From Candidatus Methylomirabilota bacterium (GTDB lineage: Bacteria; Methylomirabilota; Methylomirabilia; Rokubacteriales; CSP1-6): 35,606 bases of DNA. The DNA lies in contig DATFVL010000081.1 of the NCBI GenBank assembly GCA_035260325.1, positions 1 through 35,606 on the forward strand, in the 5' to 3' direction. The translations under genes were made by a program, and so were the position numbers. Positions 28,384 to 35,606 of this stretch are shown here, piece after piece. The notes beneath the pieces were generated by a model. The model worked only from the letters and a program-made list of their open reading frames with translations. It was not told the DNA's origin and did not search any database. The number at the start of each line of letters is the position of its first letter. Positions within the stretch are counted from its first letter, which is position 1.

Positions 28384-28815
28384 TCAGCGCTTGAACGGGA
28401 CGATGGAGAGGTCGCGCTCGCGCGTCGGGGGCGCGGGCGGCGCGGCCTCGACGGGCCGGGCCTTGGTCATCCGGCAGTGGCCCTCGAAGAGCACGCCTTC
28501 CTCGATGACCACCACGGGCGCCTCGACGTCGCCGTAGACGCGCGCCGAGCCGCGCAGCTCGACGCGCTCGGAGGCCAGGACGTTGCCGACGACCTCGCCG
28601 GAGATCAGGACGATGCCGGCGCGGATGGAGGCGTTGACGACCCCCTTCTCGCCGACGATGAGGCTGTCGTTGGAGACGATCTCACCGCGGAAGCGTCCGT
28701 TCAGCATGACGGTGCCGCTGAACGTGTACTTGCCCTCGATCTCCGAGCCTTCGTCGATGAAGGCGGTGAGATCGCTCGCCTTGACCGAGGGCTTGCTGGT
28801 CTTCCGCCACAGCAT
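28384..28815 (-). CDS. Bactofilin family cytoskeletal protein (second copy)
   Basis: This 143-residue protein has a central right-handed beta-helix bactofilin domain (about 17-112). It is recognised by repeats such as FSGTVMLNGRFRGEIVSNDS, LIVGEKGVVNASIRAG and GNVLASERVELRGSARVYGD. Short disordered tails flank it: a Lys/Ser N-terminus and a Pro/Ala-rich C-terminus ending IVPFKR. Bactofilins polymerise without nucleotide at the inner membrane and position envelope or peptidoglycan enzymes. It lies 24 bases after the first bactofilin gene and is probably co-transcribed, with a poor ribosome-binding site. No peptidase partner is present. Confidence 0.92.
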   Translation of the reverse strand: MLWRKTSKPSVKASDLTAFIDEGSEIEGKYTFSGTVMLNGRFRGEIVSNDSLIVGEKGVVNASIRAGIVLISGEVVGNVLASERVELRGSARVYGDVEAPVVVIEEGVLFEGHCRMTKARPVEAAPPAPPTRERDLSIVPFKR

Positions 28816-28839
28816 GGGCGCGGTCCCCGGCGGGCCGGA

Positions 28840-29304
28840 TTACCTCTGGAAGCTCTGCTGTCCCACGCGCTTCTCCTCGATCGGGACCACCTGGCGCGGG
28901 GCGCTCGGCTCCTCGTGCATCTTCGTGACGTTGCCGTTGAAGAAGCCGCCCTTCGAGATCACCAGCGAGTCGGTCTGGATGTTGCCGCTCACCCGGCCGG
29001 TCTCCGTGATCTCGACGTTGCCGGTGGCCACCATGTTGCCCTCGTAGTGGCCCATGATGATCGCGTCCACCGTCTGGACGTTGGCGCTGACGACGCCCTT
29101 CTCGCCGATGACGAGCTTGCCGCCGACGTTCAGCTCGCCGCCGACCTCGCACTCGATCTGGATCGAGTCCGCGATGTCGAACTTGCCCTCCATCCGCGCG
29201 TGGTCGCCGACGACCGTCAGCAGCGTGATGGGGTTGACGGGCTTCGCGTTGTCGACGGCCTGCGGCGCTGCCGGCTTTTGCGGCGCTTTCTTGTCTCCGA
29301 ACAT
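28840..29304 (-). CDS. Bactofilin family cytoskeletal protein (first copy)
   Basis: This 154-residue bactofilin has a 30-residue Pro/Ala/Lys-rich N-terminal tail. The beta-helix domain follows (about 31-130): IQIECEVGGELNVGGKLVIG, EKGVVSANVQTVDAIIMGHY and VEITETGRVSGNIQTDSLVI. A polar C-terminal tail (HEEPSAPRQVVPIEEK) completes it. The ATG at 29304 has AAGGAGG 6 bases upstream and a good promoter. The following gene encodes a second, diverged bactofilin, so mixed polymers are possible. Confidence 0.93.
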   Translation of the reverse strand: MFGDKKAPQKPAAPQAVDNAKPVNPITLLTVVGDHARMEGKFDIADSIQIECEVGGELNVGGKLVIGEKGVVSANVQTVDAIIMGHYEGNMVATGNVEITETGRVSGNIQTDSLVISKGGFFNGNVTKMHEEPSAPRQVVPIEEKRVGQQSFQR

Positions 29305-29742: not shown

Positions 29743-31098
29743 TCAGAAGCTGCGGATCAGGCGCTCGACCCGCTCGTCGTGGGACTGGAACGGGTCCTTG
29801 CAGAGGATCGTCTCGCGCTCCGGATCGTTCAATTTCAGATAGACCCAGTCCACGCGGTAGTCCTTGCCCTTGAGGTTCGCCTGGCGGATGAACTCGCCGC
29901 GCAGCCGCGCGCGGGTCGTCTGTGGGGGAATGTGCTTCGCCTGCTCGATCGTCTCGTCGTCGGTGATCCGGTCCACGTAGTCGTTGGCCACGAGGCGGTA
30001 GTAGACGCCCTTGTCGGGCCGGATGTCGTGGTACTGGAGGTCCAGCAGCGAGACCTTCGGGTCGCGCCAGGACAGCCGGTGGCGGTTCATGAAGTTCTCG
30101 ACGAGCTGGCGCTTGATGACCCAGTCGAGCTCGCGGTGGAGCTGCATCGGGTCGGTTTCGAGCTTCGTGAGCACATCCGTCCAGCGCGCGAGCACGTCCT
30201 TCGACGCCGGGTCCGGGCTGATCGAGTCCACGTAGCGCGTCGCGTACTCGAGGTACTCGAGCTGCAGCTGCAGCGCGCTGATCGTGCGCCCGTCCTTCAG
30301 CTTGATCGTCTCCCGGAGCGTCGGGTCGTGGGAGATGTCGCGAATCGCCTGCACGGGCGACTGCAAGGAGTAATCGCGGTCGAAGAAGCCGTCCTCGATC
30401 ATGTCCAGCACGAGCGCGGTCGTGCCGATCTTGAGGTACGTCGCCACCTCGGACATGTTCGAGTCGCCCACGATGACGTGCAGGCGCCGGTAGCGCTCGG
30501 CGTCGGCGTGAGGCTCGTCGCGCGTGTTGATGATCGAGCGCGACGAGGTCGTGGCGCCCGAGATCTCCTGGCAGATGTGCTGGGCCCGCTGCGAGAGGCA
30601 GTAGTGGAACCCCCGGGGCGTCTGCAGCACCTTGCCCGCGCCGGCGAAGATCTGTCGGGTGACGAAGAAGGGGATGAGCGCCTCGGCGAGCCGCTGGAAC
30701 GACACGTCGCGGCTGACGAGATAGTTCTCGTGGCAGCCGTAGCTGTTGCCCGCCGAGTCGGTGTTGTTCTTGAACAGGAGGATGTTGCCCGAGATCCCGT
30801 CTTCGCGCAGGCGCTTCTCGGCCTGGTGCAGCAGGTCCTCGACGATCCGCTCGCCCGCCTTGTCGTGGATGACGAGCTCGGTGACGTCGTCGCACTCGGG
30901 CGTCGCGTATTCCGGATGGAATCCGGTGTCCAGATAGAGCCTGGCGCCGTTTTCGAGAAATACGTTGGCATTCCGAGCGCCCGGGATCACCTTCTCGAAC
31001 AGATACCGCGCGACGTTGTCGGGCGACAGGCGCCGCTGGCCGTTCAGGGTGCAGGTGAGACCGTACTCGTTCTCGAGGCCGAAGATGCGGCGCTTCAT
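29743..31098 (-). CDS. pafA: PafA, Pup-protein ligase
   Basis: This 451-residue glutamine-synthetase-fold enzyme attaches Pup to substrate lysines. It starts [12 protein letters not shown] with Mg-ATP ligands E9 and E11, has the catalytic-type Asp D57 in [36 protein letters not shown], and [20 protein letters not shown]. The length matches PafA (about 450), and it lacks the roughly 40-residue insertion seen in Dop from this locus. The C-terminal domain ends [18 protein letters not shown]. The ATG at 31098 lies 22 bases after the prcA stop, so it is the last gene of the proteasome operon. No Pup gene is found next to it. Confidence 0.95.
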
Positions 31099-31120
31099 CT
31101 GCGTCTCAGCCTAACACGAC

Positions 31121-31813
31121 CTACCTCGCCGTGCCCAGGAGTTGCCCGAGCGCCTCCGTGGGAATGCGCCGGAACTTGCGCCGGACCTTGGTCCGGTCCA
31201 GGACCGCGACCTCCAGGTCGCGCTCGTTGAGCGTCTTGTTCTGCGTGACGGTCAGCGCGCGGACCCCGAGCTGGAGCGCGGCGTCGAGCGCCAGGCCCTC
31301 CGCGTAGTGGTCCTTGAGGACGCGGCGGATCTCGTCCGCCTGCCCGCCCATCGCCGCGTAGTTCCGCTCGTCCTCGATCGTGCCGTCGTACAGGATGTGG
31401 TAGATCTCGTTGCGCGCGCCGTTGTCATCGCCCACCTCGGCGACGAGCACCTCGACCTCGAACGGCTTGATGTCCTGCGTGAAGATGTTCCCGAGGGCCT
31501 GGGAGTAGGCGTTCGCGAGCGCCTTCGCGGTCACGTCGCCGCGGCTGTAGGAGTAGCCCTTGACGTCCGCGTGCCGGATCCCCGCGATGCGCAGGTTCTC
31601 GAACTCGTTGTACTTGCCGACGCCGGCGAACGCGATCCGGTCGTAGATCTCCGAGATCTTGTGCAGCAGCGTCGAGGGGTTCTCCGCGACGAGCAGGATG
31701 CCGTCGCGGTACTCGAGCGTGACGGTCGACCGGCCGCGTGCGATGCCCTTGCGCGCGTACTCGGCCTTGTCCTTCATCATCTGCTCGGGGCTGACGTAGT
31801 AGGGGAGCGGCAT
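31121..31813 (-). CDS. prcA: 20S proteasome alpha subunit
   Basis: This 230-residue Ntn-fold subunit forms the outer gating rings of the 20S core. It starts PLPYYVSPEQMMKDKAEYAR and has RKGIARGRSTVTLEYRDGIL, the usual PrcA entry, with no catalytic N-terminal Thr. GDVTAKALANAYSQALGNIF and PFEVEVLVAEVGDD also match actinobacterial-type PrcA. The gene starts 4 bases after the prcB stop, so the two subunits are made together. The tail is basic (KVRRKFRRIPTEALGQLLG). Confidence 0.95.
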   Translation of the reverse strand: MPLPYYVSPEQMMKDKAEYARKGIARGRSTVTLEYRDGILLVAENPSTLLHKISEIYDRIAFAGVGKYNEFENLRIAGIRHADVKGYSYSRGDVTAKALANAYSQALGNIFTQDIKPFEVEVLVAEVGDDNGARNEIYHILYDGTIEDERNYAAMGGQADEIRRVLKDHYAEGLALDAALQLGVRALTVTQNKTLNERDLEVAVLDRTKVRRKFRRIPTEALGQLLGTAR

Positions 31814-31817
31814 CGCC

Positions 31818-32633
31818 TCAGTCCCCCGTCGCGTTGCGGGTCCGGTCCGCCAGGATCGTCTCGCACACGCGCCGCACTTCGTCGTCCGGCACGTCCTGGA
31901 ACCCGGAGCGGGTGATGGTCTTGACGGACGGGAAGATGCCGCGCACGAGATCCGGCCCGCCGGTCCCCACGTCCTCGTCGGCCGCGTCGACGAGCGCCTC
32001 GAGCGCGACGCGGAGCGCCTCCTCGCGCGTCATGTCGCGGCGCCAGAGCTTCTTCAGCGAGTCGCGCGCGTCCTTCGAGCCCGAGCCCTGCGCGTCGTAG
32101 TTCGTCTCCTCGTAACGGCCGCCGGTGACGTCGTACTTGAAGAGCCGGCCGGTCCCGGCCTTCTCGTCGAAGCCCGCGAAGATCGGGACCACGACGAGCC
32201 CCTGCATCGCGGCGGGGAGGTTCATGCGGATCATCTGCGAGAGGCGGTTGGCCTTGCCCTCGAGCGAGAGGTTGTCGCCCTCGACCTTCTCGTAGTGCTC
32301 GAGCTCGGTCTGGAAGAGCTTCGCCATCTCGGTCGCGGGCCCGGCGACGCCGGCGATGCCGACGCCCGAGAGCTCGTCGGCCTTGAAGATCTTCTCGATC
32401 CGGCGGCCCGCCACCTGGTAGCCGGCGGTCGCCTGCCGGTCGCCCGCCATGATGACCCCGTCGCGGTAGCGCACGGAGAGCACGGTGGTCCCGTGGGGCG
32501 GCTCGGGCGGCGCCTCGTGCGGCGCAGACGCGCCGCCCGGCATCATGTGCGGCGCCTCGCGGCGCAGCAGGTCCATGAAGCTCGGGTTCGAGTAGTCGTT
32601 GAAGAGATGCTGCCAGCGGCCCTGGTCGGCCAT
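31818..32633 (-). CDS. prcB: 20S proteasome beta subunit (proprotein)
   Basis: This 271-residue proteolytic subunit has a propeptide of about 48 residues, removed before T49 in PPHGTTVLSVRYRDGVIMAG, so the mature chain would have the catalytic N-terminal Thr. GDRQATAGYQVAGRRIEKIF and GVAGPATEMAKLFQTELEHY are typical of PrcB. The ATG at 32633 is only 5 bases after the dop stop. In actinobacteria the pup gene normally sits at this exact place; here there is no room for it. The reading frame continues upstream through dop, but that is not coding. Confidence 0.95.
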   Translation of the reverse strand: MADQGRWQHLFNDYSNPSFMDLLRREAPHMMPGGASAPHEAPPEPPHGTTVLSVRYRDGVIMAGDRQATAGYQVAGRRIEKIFKADELSGVGIAGVAGPATEMAKLFQTELEHYEKVEGDNLSLEGKANRLSQMIRMNLPAAMQGLVVVPIFAGFDEKAGTGRLFKYDVTGGRYEETNYDAQGSGSKDARDSLKKLWRRDMTREEALRVALEALVDAADEDVGTGGPDLVRGIFPSVKTITRSGFQDVPDDEVRRVCETILADRTRNATGD

Positions 32634-32638
32634 GCCCG

Positions 32639-34135
32639 TCACATTCCGGCCGCGCGCGAGATGTTGCGCAGCAGATCCGCCGCCGTGGGCGACTCCATCA
32701 GGAGTCCGCGGACGTGAGCCTCGGTGCCGCGCAGCGGCTCGAGCATGAAGATTTTCTTCAGCGGCCCCTCCTTGAGGTCGAAGATCACAGAGTCCCAGCT
32801 CGCCGACACGATCTCCTCCGCGTACCGCTGCAGGCACATGCCGCGGAAGTAGGCGCGCGTGTCCTTCGGCGGGTCGTAGATCGCCTTGGAGATCTCGTCG
32901 TCGGTGACGATCCGCTCGACGGCCTCGGCCTCCTCGAGCTTGTAGTAGAGGCCCTTGCCCGGGCGGATGTCGTGGTACTGGAGGTCGATCATCTGCACGC
33001 GCGAGGCGTTCCACTCGAGCGTGTGCTTCGCCATGTAGTTCTCGATGACCTGCCGCTTGATGACCCAGTCGAGCTCGCGGCCGAGCTGCGCCGGGTCCTC
33101 GGCGAGGCGATCCAGCGTGTGCTCCCAGCGGCCCAGCACGTCGGCGACCCAGGACTCCTTCTCGCGGTCGCGGTAGTAGCGCTGCGCCATCGCCAGGAAC
33201 TCGCGCTGGAGGTCCACGGCGGAGACGGAGCGTCCGTCCTTGAGCCGGATCGTGTCGCGGCAGGTGAGGTCGCGCGAGACTTTCCGGAACGCGGCCACGG
33301 GCCCGTCGATGGACAGGTCGCGGTCGATGAAGTCGTCCTCGACCATGCTGAGCACGATCGCCATCGTCCCGACCTTGAGGTAGTTGGCGGTCTCGCTCAT
33401 GTTGGCGTCGCCGACGATGACGTGCAGGCGGCGGTACTTCTCGGGGTCGGCGTGGGGCTCGTCCCGCGTGTTGATGATCGGGCGCGAGTGCATCGTCTCG
33501 AGGCCGACCTCCGTCTCGAGGAAGTCGGCGCGCTGCGAGATCTGGTAATCGCACGGGTCCGCGTTGTTCTCGGCGCCGACCTTCCCGGCCCCGGTGAAGA
33601 TCTGACGAGTCACGAAGAACGGCATCATGTGCTGCACGATCCGCGCGAACGGCACCCGGCGGTCCATCAGGTAGTTCTCGTGGGTGCCGTACGAGTTGCC
33701 CTTGCTGTCGGTGTTGTTCTTGTAGATCAGGATCCGCTGCTCGGGCGGCGAGACCGCTTCGGCGCGCTGCCGCGACAGGTTCAGGATGCGCTCGCCCGCT
33801 CGGTCCCAGATCACGAGGTCGCGCGGGTTGGTCGTCTCCGGGCTCGAGTATTCGGGGTGCGCGTGGTCCACGTAGAAGCGCGCGCCGTTCGAGAGGATCA
33901 AGTTGATCAGGCGCGACTCCTCCTTCGAGGTGCCCTCCTTCTCCTCCATGTACTCGAAGCCCCGGGCGTCCCGGAGCGGGCTCTCCGCCTCGTAGTCCCA
34001 CCGGACGCGCGAGGAGCGGAAGGTCTCGTAGGAGTTGATCAGCAGCAGCGAGGACAGGATCGGGTTGAAGTCGGGCTGGTTCTTCACCGTGATCCCGTAC
34101 TCGGTTTCGATGCCCATGACTTTCGGGATGGCCAT
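32639..34135 (-). CDS. dop: Dop, Pup deamidase/depupylase
   Basis: This 498-residue PafA paralogue deamidates Pup-Gln to Pup-Glu and removes Pup from conjugates. It begins KVMGIETEYGITVKNQPDFN and carries the Dop-specific loop (about 42-80, RVRWDYEAESPLRDARGFEY and following). The catalytic-type Asp D90 sits in ARFYVDHAHPEYSSPE. FKNN-like YKNNTDSKGNSYGTHENYLM and [20 protein letters not shown] match the PafA/Dop core. The loop and length distinguish it from PafA. Two hairpins separate it from the upstream ATPase gene. It precedes prcB with 5 bases between them. Confidence 0.95.
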   Translation of the reverse strand: MAIPKVMGIETEYGITVKNQPDFNPILSSLLLINSYETFRSSRVRWDYEAESPLRDARGFEYMEEKEGTSKEESRLINLILSNGARFYVDHAHPEYSSPETTNPRDLVIWDRAGERILNLSRQRAEAVSPPEQRILIYKNNTDSKGNSYGTHENYLMDRRVPFARIVQHMMPFFVTRQIFTGAGKVGAENNADPCDYQISQRADFLETEVGLETMHSRPIINTRDEPHADPEKYRRLHVIVGDANMSETANYLKVGTMAIVLSMVEDDFIDRDLSIDGPVAAFRKVSRDLTCRDTIRLKDGRSVSAVDLQREFLAMAQRYYRDREKESWVADVLGRWEHTLDRLAEDPAQLGRELDWVIKRQVIENYMAKHTLEWNASRVQMIDLQYHDIRPGKGLYYKLEEAEAVERIVTDDEISKAIYDPPKDTRAYFRGMCLQRYAEEIVSASWDSVIFDLKEGPLKKIFMLEPLRGTEAHVRGLLMESPTAADLLRNISRAAGM

Positions 34136-34165
34136 GCGTCCCCCAACGTCGCGTGAGAACAGAAA

Positions 34166-34186
34166 CCCCTGGCCGGGGGCCAGGGG
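34166..34186 (-). terminator. Candidate intrinsic terminator/attenuator between the proteasome ATPase gene and dop
   Basis: CCCCTGGCC and GGCCAGGGG form a 9-bp perfect stem with a 3-base loop, and the minus-strand RNA continues with UUUCUGUUCU. It lies upstream of dop and about 40 bases after the ATPase stop. It may partly terminate transcription, or the U-tract may be too weak and allow readthrough into the protease genes. Positions could be off by one base. Confidence 0.5.
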
Positions 34187-34192
34187 AGGAAC

Positions 34193-34216
34193 GAGGGGGG
34201 CCGCGGGACCCCCCTC
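34193..34216. repeat. Second hairpin next to the terminator candidate
   Basis: GAGGGGGG and CCCCCCTC are perfectly complementary around an 8-base loop, 11 bases after the ATPase stop on the minus strand. No T-run follows directly. Together with the adjacent stem it gives two tandem hairpins in 91 intergenic bases. Confidence 0.5.
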
Positions 34217-34226
34217 CCGATCTCGG

Positions 34227-35606
34227 TTACAGGTATTGGCCGGTGTTGACGAGCTTTTCCACGCTGCGCTGCTTTTCCTTCGCCTCGCCCATCAGCGGTT
34301 TCACGTAGACGATCCGCTCGCCCTTCTTGCCGGCGATCTTGGCCCAGTCGTCGGGGTTCGTCGTGTTCGGCAGGTCCTCGTTCTCCTTGAACTCCTCGCG
34401 CACGGCCGTGGTGAGGTCGTCGGTCGTGATGCCCTTGGGGCCGCCGCCGATGAGGCGCTTGAGGGCGAGCTTCTTGGCCCGGCGCACGATGGACTCGATC
34501 ATGGCGCCGGAGGAGAAGTCCTTGAAGTAGAGGACCTCCTTGTCGCCGTTGGCGTAGGTGACCTCGAGGAAGCGGTTTTCCTCGGAGAGGCTGTACATGG
34601 CCTCCACGCTGGCGACGATCATCTGCTCGATGGCGGCGGCGATGTCGCCGCGGGCCTCACTCTGGGCGAAGGGGATGTCGGTGGTGAGGTACTTCTTGAA
34701 GATGTCGGCGGCCGCGGCGCGGTCGGGCCGCTCGATCTTGATCTTCACGTCCAGGCGCCCGGGGCGCAGGATCGCGGGGTCGATGAGGTCCTGGCGGTTA
34801 CTGGCGCCGATGACGATGACGTTCTTGAGGCCCTCGACGCCGTCGATCTCGGCCAGGAGCTGGGGCACGATCGTGGTCTCGACGTCGGAGGAGATGCCGG
34901 TGCCGCGGGTGCGGAAGAGCGCGTCCATCTCGTCGAAGAAGACGATGACGGGCACGTCCTCGGCGGCCTTTTCCTTAGCTTTGACGAAAATCTCTCGAAT
35001 CTTCCTCTCTGTCTCTCCCACGTACTTGTTCAGCAGCTCCGGGCCTTTGATGTTGAGGAAGTAGCCCTTGATCTTCTCGCCGCGGGTTTCGGAGATCTTC
35101 TCGGCGAGGTTGTTGGCGACGGCCTTGGCGATCATGGTCTTGCCGCAGCCGGGGGGGCCGTAGAGGAGCACGCCCTTGGGGGGCGTGAGCTTGTGCTCCT
35201 TGTAGTAGTCGGCGTAGAGGTAGGGGAGCTCCACGGCGTCCTTGATGGCCTCGATCTGGTCGACGAGGCCGCCGATGTCGTCGTAGCCGATGTCGGGCAC
35301 TTCCTCGAGCTGGAGATCCTCGACCTCGCTCTTGGGGAGCTTCTCCAGCAGGTAGCCGCTCTTGGCGTCCATGAGGAGATGGTCGCCCGTCTTGAGCCGC
35401 TGCAGGCGCAGGGGGTCGGCGATGATGCCGACCTTCTCCTCGTCGGCGCGCAGCGTGACGACGGCGCGCTCGGGGTCGAGCTGCTCCTTGAGGATGACGA
35501 CCTCGCCCTGGATCTCGTAGCCGGCGGCCTCGATGACGTTGAGGCCCTCGTTGAGGATGAGCTCCTGGCCGGGCTTGAGGGCGTCGGGCTTGAGGGCGGG
35601 GTGCAG
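34227..35606 (-). CDS. arc: Proteasome-associated AAA+ ATPase (ARC/Mpa); 5' end cut by window edge
   Basis: The last 459 residues are visible; the coiled-coil N-terminus that binds Pup lies outside the window. The first 78 visible residues ([20 protein letters not shown], then [20 protein letters not shown]) are the OB-fold interdomain. The AAA+ domain has Walker A GPPGCGKT (K156 of the visible chain), Walker [13 protein letters not shown] and the arginine-finger region [20 protein letters not shown]. The chain ends NTGQYL: the C-terminal GQYL tail is what ARC/Mpa uses to dock on the 20S core. This confirms it as the unfoldase partner of PrcBA rather than a generic AAA protein. Confidence 0.95.

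Follow-up and report, generated by a model that had tools for sequence, protein, structure and literature searches.

The stretch of DNA analysed here (35,606 nucleotides, "the window") is the entire contig C81 of a 3.77-Mb metagenome-assembled genome, which is fragmented into 317 contigs. The closest named relatives of this genome in the Pup scan were Candidatus Rokubacteria/Rokuibacteriota. At the end of the contig, five genes of a Pup-proteasome locus follow one another on the minus strand in the order arc-dop-prcB-prcA-pafA, in the common direction given in the earlier note on this DNA. They encode the proteasomal AAA+ ATPase ARC (34227..35606, 459 codons to the contig end), the depupylase/deamidase Dop (32639..34135, 498 aa), the beta subunit PrcB (31818..32633, 271 aa) and the alpha subunit PrcA (31121..31813, 230 aa) of the 20S proteasome, and the Pup-protein ligase PafA (29743..31098, 451 aa).

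The identity of the five genes was assessed by the curated NCBIfam equivalog cut-offs, all of which were exceeded: ARC had a score of 670.8 bits against TIGR03689 (cut-off 504.75), Dop 623 bits against TIGR03688 (492.3), PrcB 318 bits against TIGR03690 (191.9), PrcA 333.9 bits against TIGR03691 (139.05), and PafA 632.3 bits against TIGR03686 (551.3). As the earlier note had read from the translation, ARC carries the docking tail GQYL at its C-terminus, which together with the TIGR03689 match characterizes an ARC/Mpa ATPase. Dop and PafA of the window align end to end, over nearly the whole length, with the solved structures of Dop (5lrt) and PafA (4b0t), respectively. The long repeats seen within the locus reflect the paralogy of dop and pafA.

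The description of the locus as complete had to be amended, because arc is cut by the contig end. The gene overruns the end of C81 and its 5' part is situated on contig C35: the ends of C35 and of the window share an exact 141-bp overlap, and the N-terminus of ARC is encoded on C35:1-570. Directly downstream of pafA, at 28384-29304, there are two genes that we take to be bactofilin-like; such a pair next to pafA is also kept in several relatives.

The stop codon of dop (32641-32639) and the ATG of prcB (32633-32631) are separated by CGGGC, the five bases reported earlier. The usual, though not strictly defining, placement of pup adjacent to dop and prcB is therefore not observed in this genome. 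A six-frame scan for ORFs of at least 20 aa, covering the 35.6-kb window and the adjoining contig C35, produced not a single ORF ending in GGE or GGQ; the same had been noted for small ORFs in the locus and its gaps. The region upstream of arc, to which pup was suspected to have moved, contains on C35 a divergent gene and no ORF with a GG(E/Q) end, and this position was ruled out for the present genome. We did observe such an order in one relative (L149, see below).

A pup gene on contig C183

A search of the same genome with the Pfam Pup model gave one confident match, on contig C183 (E 1.3e-21). The gene (G000:C183:7734-7934) codes for a protein of 66 aa ending in VQRGGE, with a score of 80.7 bits against PF05639 (cut-off 27) and of 63 bits against TIGR03687, the Pup C-terminal equivalog (cut-off 41.45). 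Both the length (Pup proteins have about 60-70 aa) and the GG(E/Q) end are those of Pup, and the sequence matches solved Pup chains, including those in complexes with PafA, Dop and the ATPase. The ATG codon is preceded by GGGAGG, a ribosome-binding-like motif. The gene order on C183 is dcd-pup-fmdB-lysR, where pup starts ~40 bp after dcd (dCTP deaminase) and ends 3 bp before fmdB, which encodes a small zinc-ribbon protein and is in turn followed by the regulator gene lysR.

A Pup encoded in the genome marks membership in the Pup-proteasome system, and the first option in the earlier note, that pup is encoded elsewhere, was borne out by the Pup HMM search which that note had proposed. It had also stated that a pup gene elsewhere in the genome with a normal C-terminus would make the case a simple relocation, and this is what was found. 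Judging from gene content and family membership, the genome almost certainly encodes an ordinary Pup-proteasome system, with pup simply located elsewhere, in the dcd-pup-fmdB-lysR block. In such a system, Pup would be produced from C183; PafA would attach it, via the C-terminal glutamate, to lysines of target proteins; Dop would remove it from the targets; and ARC would recognise Pup and feed the tagged proteins into the PrcB/PrcA proteasome. Deamidation by Dop would be unneeded because the C183 Pup already ends in GGE. These activities, as well as the joint working of the two loci, are predicted from the protein families.

Since the genome was binned from a metagenome, the C183 Pup could have come with a contaminant contig from another organism, the genome's own pup being unassembled or absent. 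The bin has a contamination of 3.89%, and the GC content of C183 is 73.5% compared to 69.1% in the window. Still, C183 is in the same bin as the window and its tetranucleotide correlation with the window is 0.979. Moreover, the four-gene block is also present in the congeneric genome G001, with an identical Pup and with the neighbours of pup 84-88% identical, while its Dop, 96% identical to that of the window, belongs to the same proteasome locus, again unlinked to pup. We consider contamination very improbable, and even if it were true, the lineage as a whole would still, as a rule, have its pup apart from the proteasome genes. That C183 and C81 lie on one chromosome is deduced from the binning and from the relatives, with the residual doubt usual for binned genomes.

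Position of pup among relatives

Pup was present in 54 of the 60 relatives and Dop/PafA-type proteins in 49 of the 60; among the Pup copies read in relatives, 33 end in GGQ. For 50 Rokubacteria-type pup loci from named public genomes we considered the flanks, which extended to at most 10 kb on either side; dop, pafA and prc genes were absent from all of them. The gene dcd was situated less than 400 bp upstream of pup in 34 of these 50 loci. Generally, in the sampled Rokubacteria pup is separate from the proteasome genes and adjoins fmdB, usually as dcd–pup–fmdB–lysR. In the single-contig genome G045 of the same class, pup-fmdB is found ~47 kb from arc-dop-prcB-prcA-pafA.

The synteny comparison suggested in the earlier note thus showed a separate pup lineage-wide in Rokubacteria, with the classic order dop-pup-prcB-prcA-pafA retained in other relatives (L072, L073, L167, L169). 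Two further orders look like intermediate arrangements. In L149 (genome G061) pup-fmdB is positioned directly upstream of arc-dop, and dop-prcB-prcA-pafA continues on another contig; in L086 and L148 pup-fmdB is ~6 kb from arc. A Dop tree of 37 rows gave no resolution of the direction and number of the pup moves: the pup-unlinked label needs three changes, and the tree leaves many forks open and places long branches together.

What we observe is a lineage-wide relocation of ordinary Pup. A canonical Pup is encoded elsewhere in the genome, and the missing gene in the locus can therefore be explained without a new tag protein. The speculation that PafA and Dop act here on a different small modifier, which the absence of pup at or near the locus had invited, found no support and is rejected as having next to no probability, given the canonical Pup in this genome and in most relatives, the scores of Dop and PafA above curated equivalog cut-offs for Pup enzymes, the match of Dop, PafA and Pup to canonical, structurally solved families, and the presence of pup between dop and prcB in relatives with 56-62% identical enzymes. 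A false lead is thus removed.

In comparison with the Pup-proteasome systems of actinobacteria and Leptospirillum (arc/mpa, dop, pup, prcB, prcA, pafA), all six components are encoded here as well, the relative order of the five window genes is the classic one, and the C-terminus of Pup is GGE; the difference is that pup is on another contig beside fmdB and not between dop and prcB. Iyer et al. 2008 stated that pup always neighbours a gene of the pafA family (PMC2588565), and a 2012 review considered the gene order rigidly conserved (PMC3511204). The arrangement reported here is an exception to both statements and not a new kind of system.

An unlinked pup is not unique to the lineage of the window, since pup is also apart in Nitrospira. 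In the complete genome of Nitrospira moscoviensis, dop-prcB-prcA-pafA has no pup between dop and prcB, like the window, and pup is ~49 kb away. Unlike the case described here, that pup has other neighbours, with no fmdB match beside it, and the genome has a second, divergent cluster of dop/prc/pafA type. The proteins of this second cluster (L175, about 759-764 kb) are about 31-37% identical to those of the window, and no small ORF ending in GG(E/Q) was detected in the stretch examined. Among Nitrospira pup loci, 0 of 16 had dop, prcB, prcA or pafA in the flank examined.

Evidently, pup is not always beside its enzymes, and a survey that confined its search for Pup to the surroundings of dop or pafA would mistakenly record its absence from Rokubacteria, Methylomirabilis and Nitrospira. 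A literature search for pupylation or the proteasome in Rokubacteria or Methylomirabilis returned nothing relevant; most subscription papers were outside its reach and may hold a prior mention of the separate pup.

The pup–fmdB pair

Besides its separation from the proteasome genes, pup showed a stable association with fmdB, the one mildly unusual element of the system. In 55 of 60 named loci (L090-L149) fmdB is situated on the same strand no more than 100 bp downstream of pup, mostly at 0-5 bp. The five exceptions comprise one deletion and one additional copy of Pup, and otherwise loci where the contig ends or is interrupted by an N-run. The pair is kept together in Methylomirabilis relatives too.

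The neighbour of pup in the present genome had a score of 50.3 bits against TIGR02605 (cut-off 31.3) and 47.8 bits against PF09723 (cut-off 34.4). The pattern CxxC-(16)-CxxC near its N-terminus is that of a zinc ribbon with two CxxC pairs. Two such pairs, at C8/C11 and C29/C32, are described for Ruc (Rv0991c) of M. tuberculosis, in which a zinc ribbon with four cysteines is followed by a disordered tail. Ruc acts as a redox-regulated chaperone, and its induction by heat depends on the Pup-proteasome (PMC7448276). The likeness, an FmdB-type zinc ribbon with two cysteine pairs, is one of description and not of sequence comparison. On the other hand, that paper does not describe Ruc as encoded beside pup, and chaperone activity was reported for the M. 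tuberculosis protein only (PMC7448276).

As an addition to the relocation of an ordinary pup, and not as a competitor, pup and the gene of an FmdB/Ruc-like chaperone might work as one functional unit, in which the supply of the tag would respond to stress separately from the enzymes. The frequency of the pairing in the named loci, its presence in Methylomirabilis, and the properties of Ruc are consistent with such a unit, which we nonetheless regard as rather unlikely: FmdB proteins are common (four genes over the Pfam cut-off in this genome), the neighbourhood analysis in the Ruc paper did not bring up pup (PMC7448276), and tight spacing suggests co-transcription, not joint function. Tentatively, the conserved and probably co-transcribed pair that pup forms, outside the proteasome locus, with a gene for a Ruc-like FmdB zinc ribbon in Rokubacteria and Methylomirabilis could place tag supply under redox or heat-stress control, independently of the proteasome and of the enzymes that attach the tag. 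A shared function of pup and fmdB is a reasonable hypothesis suggested by gene proximity, and the conserved pair provides a specific connection, open to experimental test, between pupylation and a family of chaperone-like zinc ribbons.

Additional and altered pup genes

Two or three Pup genes are present in each of several relatives: L078, L079 and L080 in G026, L081 and L082 in G029, L034 and L089 in G038, and L073 and L074 in G046. In G046 one pup occupies the classic place between dop and prcB and the second is situated elsewhere, as a route of duplication followed by relocation would predict.

In two loci, L076 (G022:C102, 2902 on) and L077 (G032:C259, 3413 on), pup ends just after ...EEFVKSY, with the GG(E/Q) end lost. 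Both G022 and G032 are draft genomes, 81% and 77% complete, in neither of which Dop, PafA or PrcA was found; in G022, no pafA is present in the ~12 kb that lie upstream of a bactofilin pair. The shortened genes could reflect decay that followed the loss of the ligase, or an error of assembly. Ligase loss in G031 and G011, in which the search gave Pup and no Dop, PafA or PrcA, was not established, as their contigs break off next to the flanking bactofilins or within pafA or arc.

In G010, where Pup is present and Dop, PafA and PrcA were not found, a full ARC ending in GQYL (L198, G010:C5, 2298-4088) is encoded alone in a different neighbourhood. Finally, a Candidatus Sungbacteria contig (MHQO01000062.1, 26-241; L151) carries a Pup ending in GGQ beside an IMP-dehydrogenase-like ORF. 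Its genome (G062, candidate-phyla-radiation, ~1.1 Mb) has five matches to the Pup-ligase family (PF03136), an unusual expansion if they are not mis-binned.
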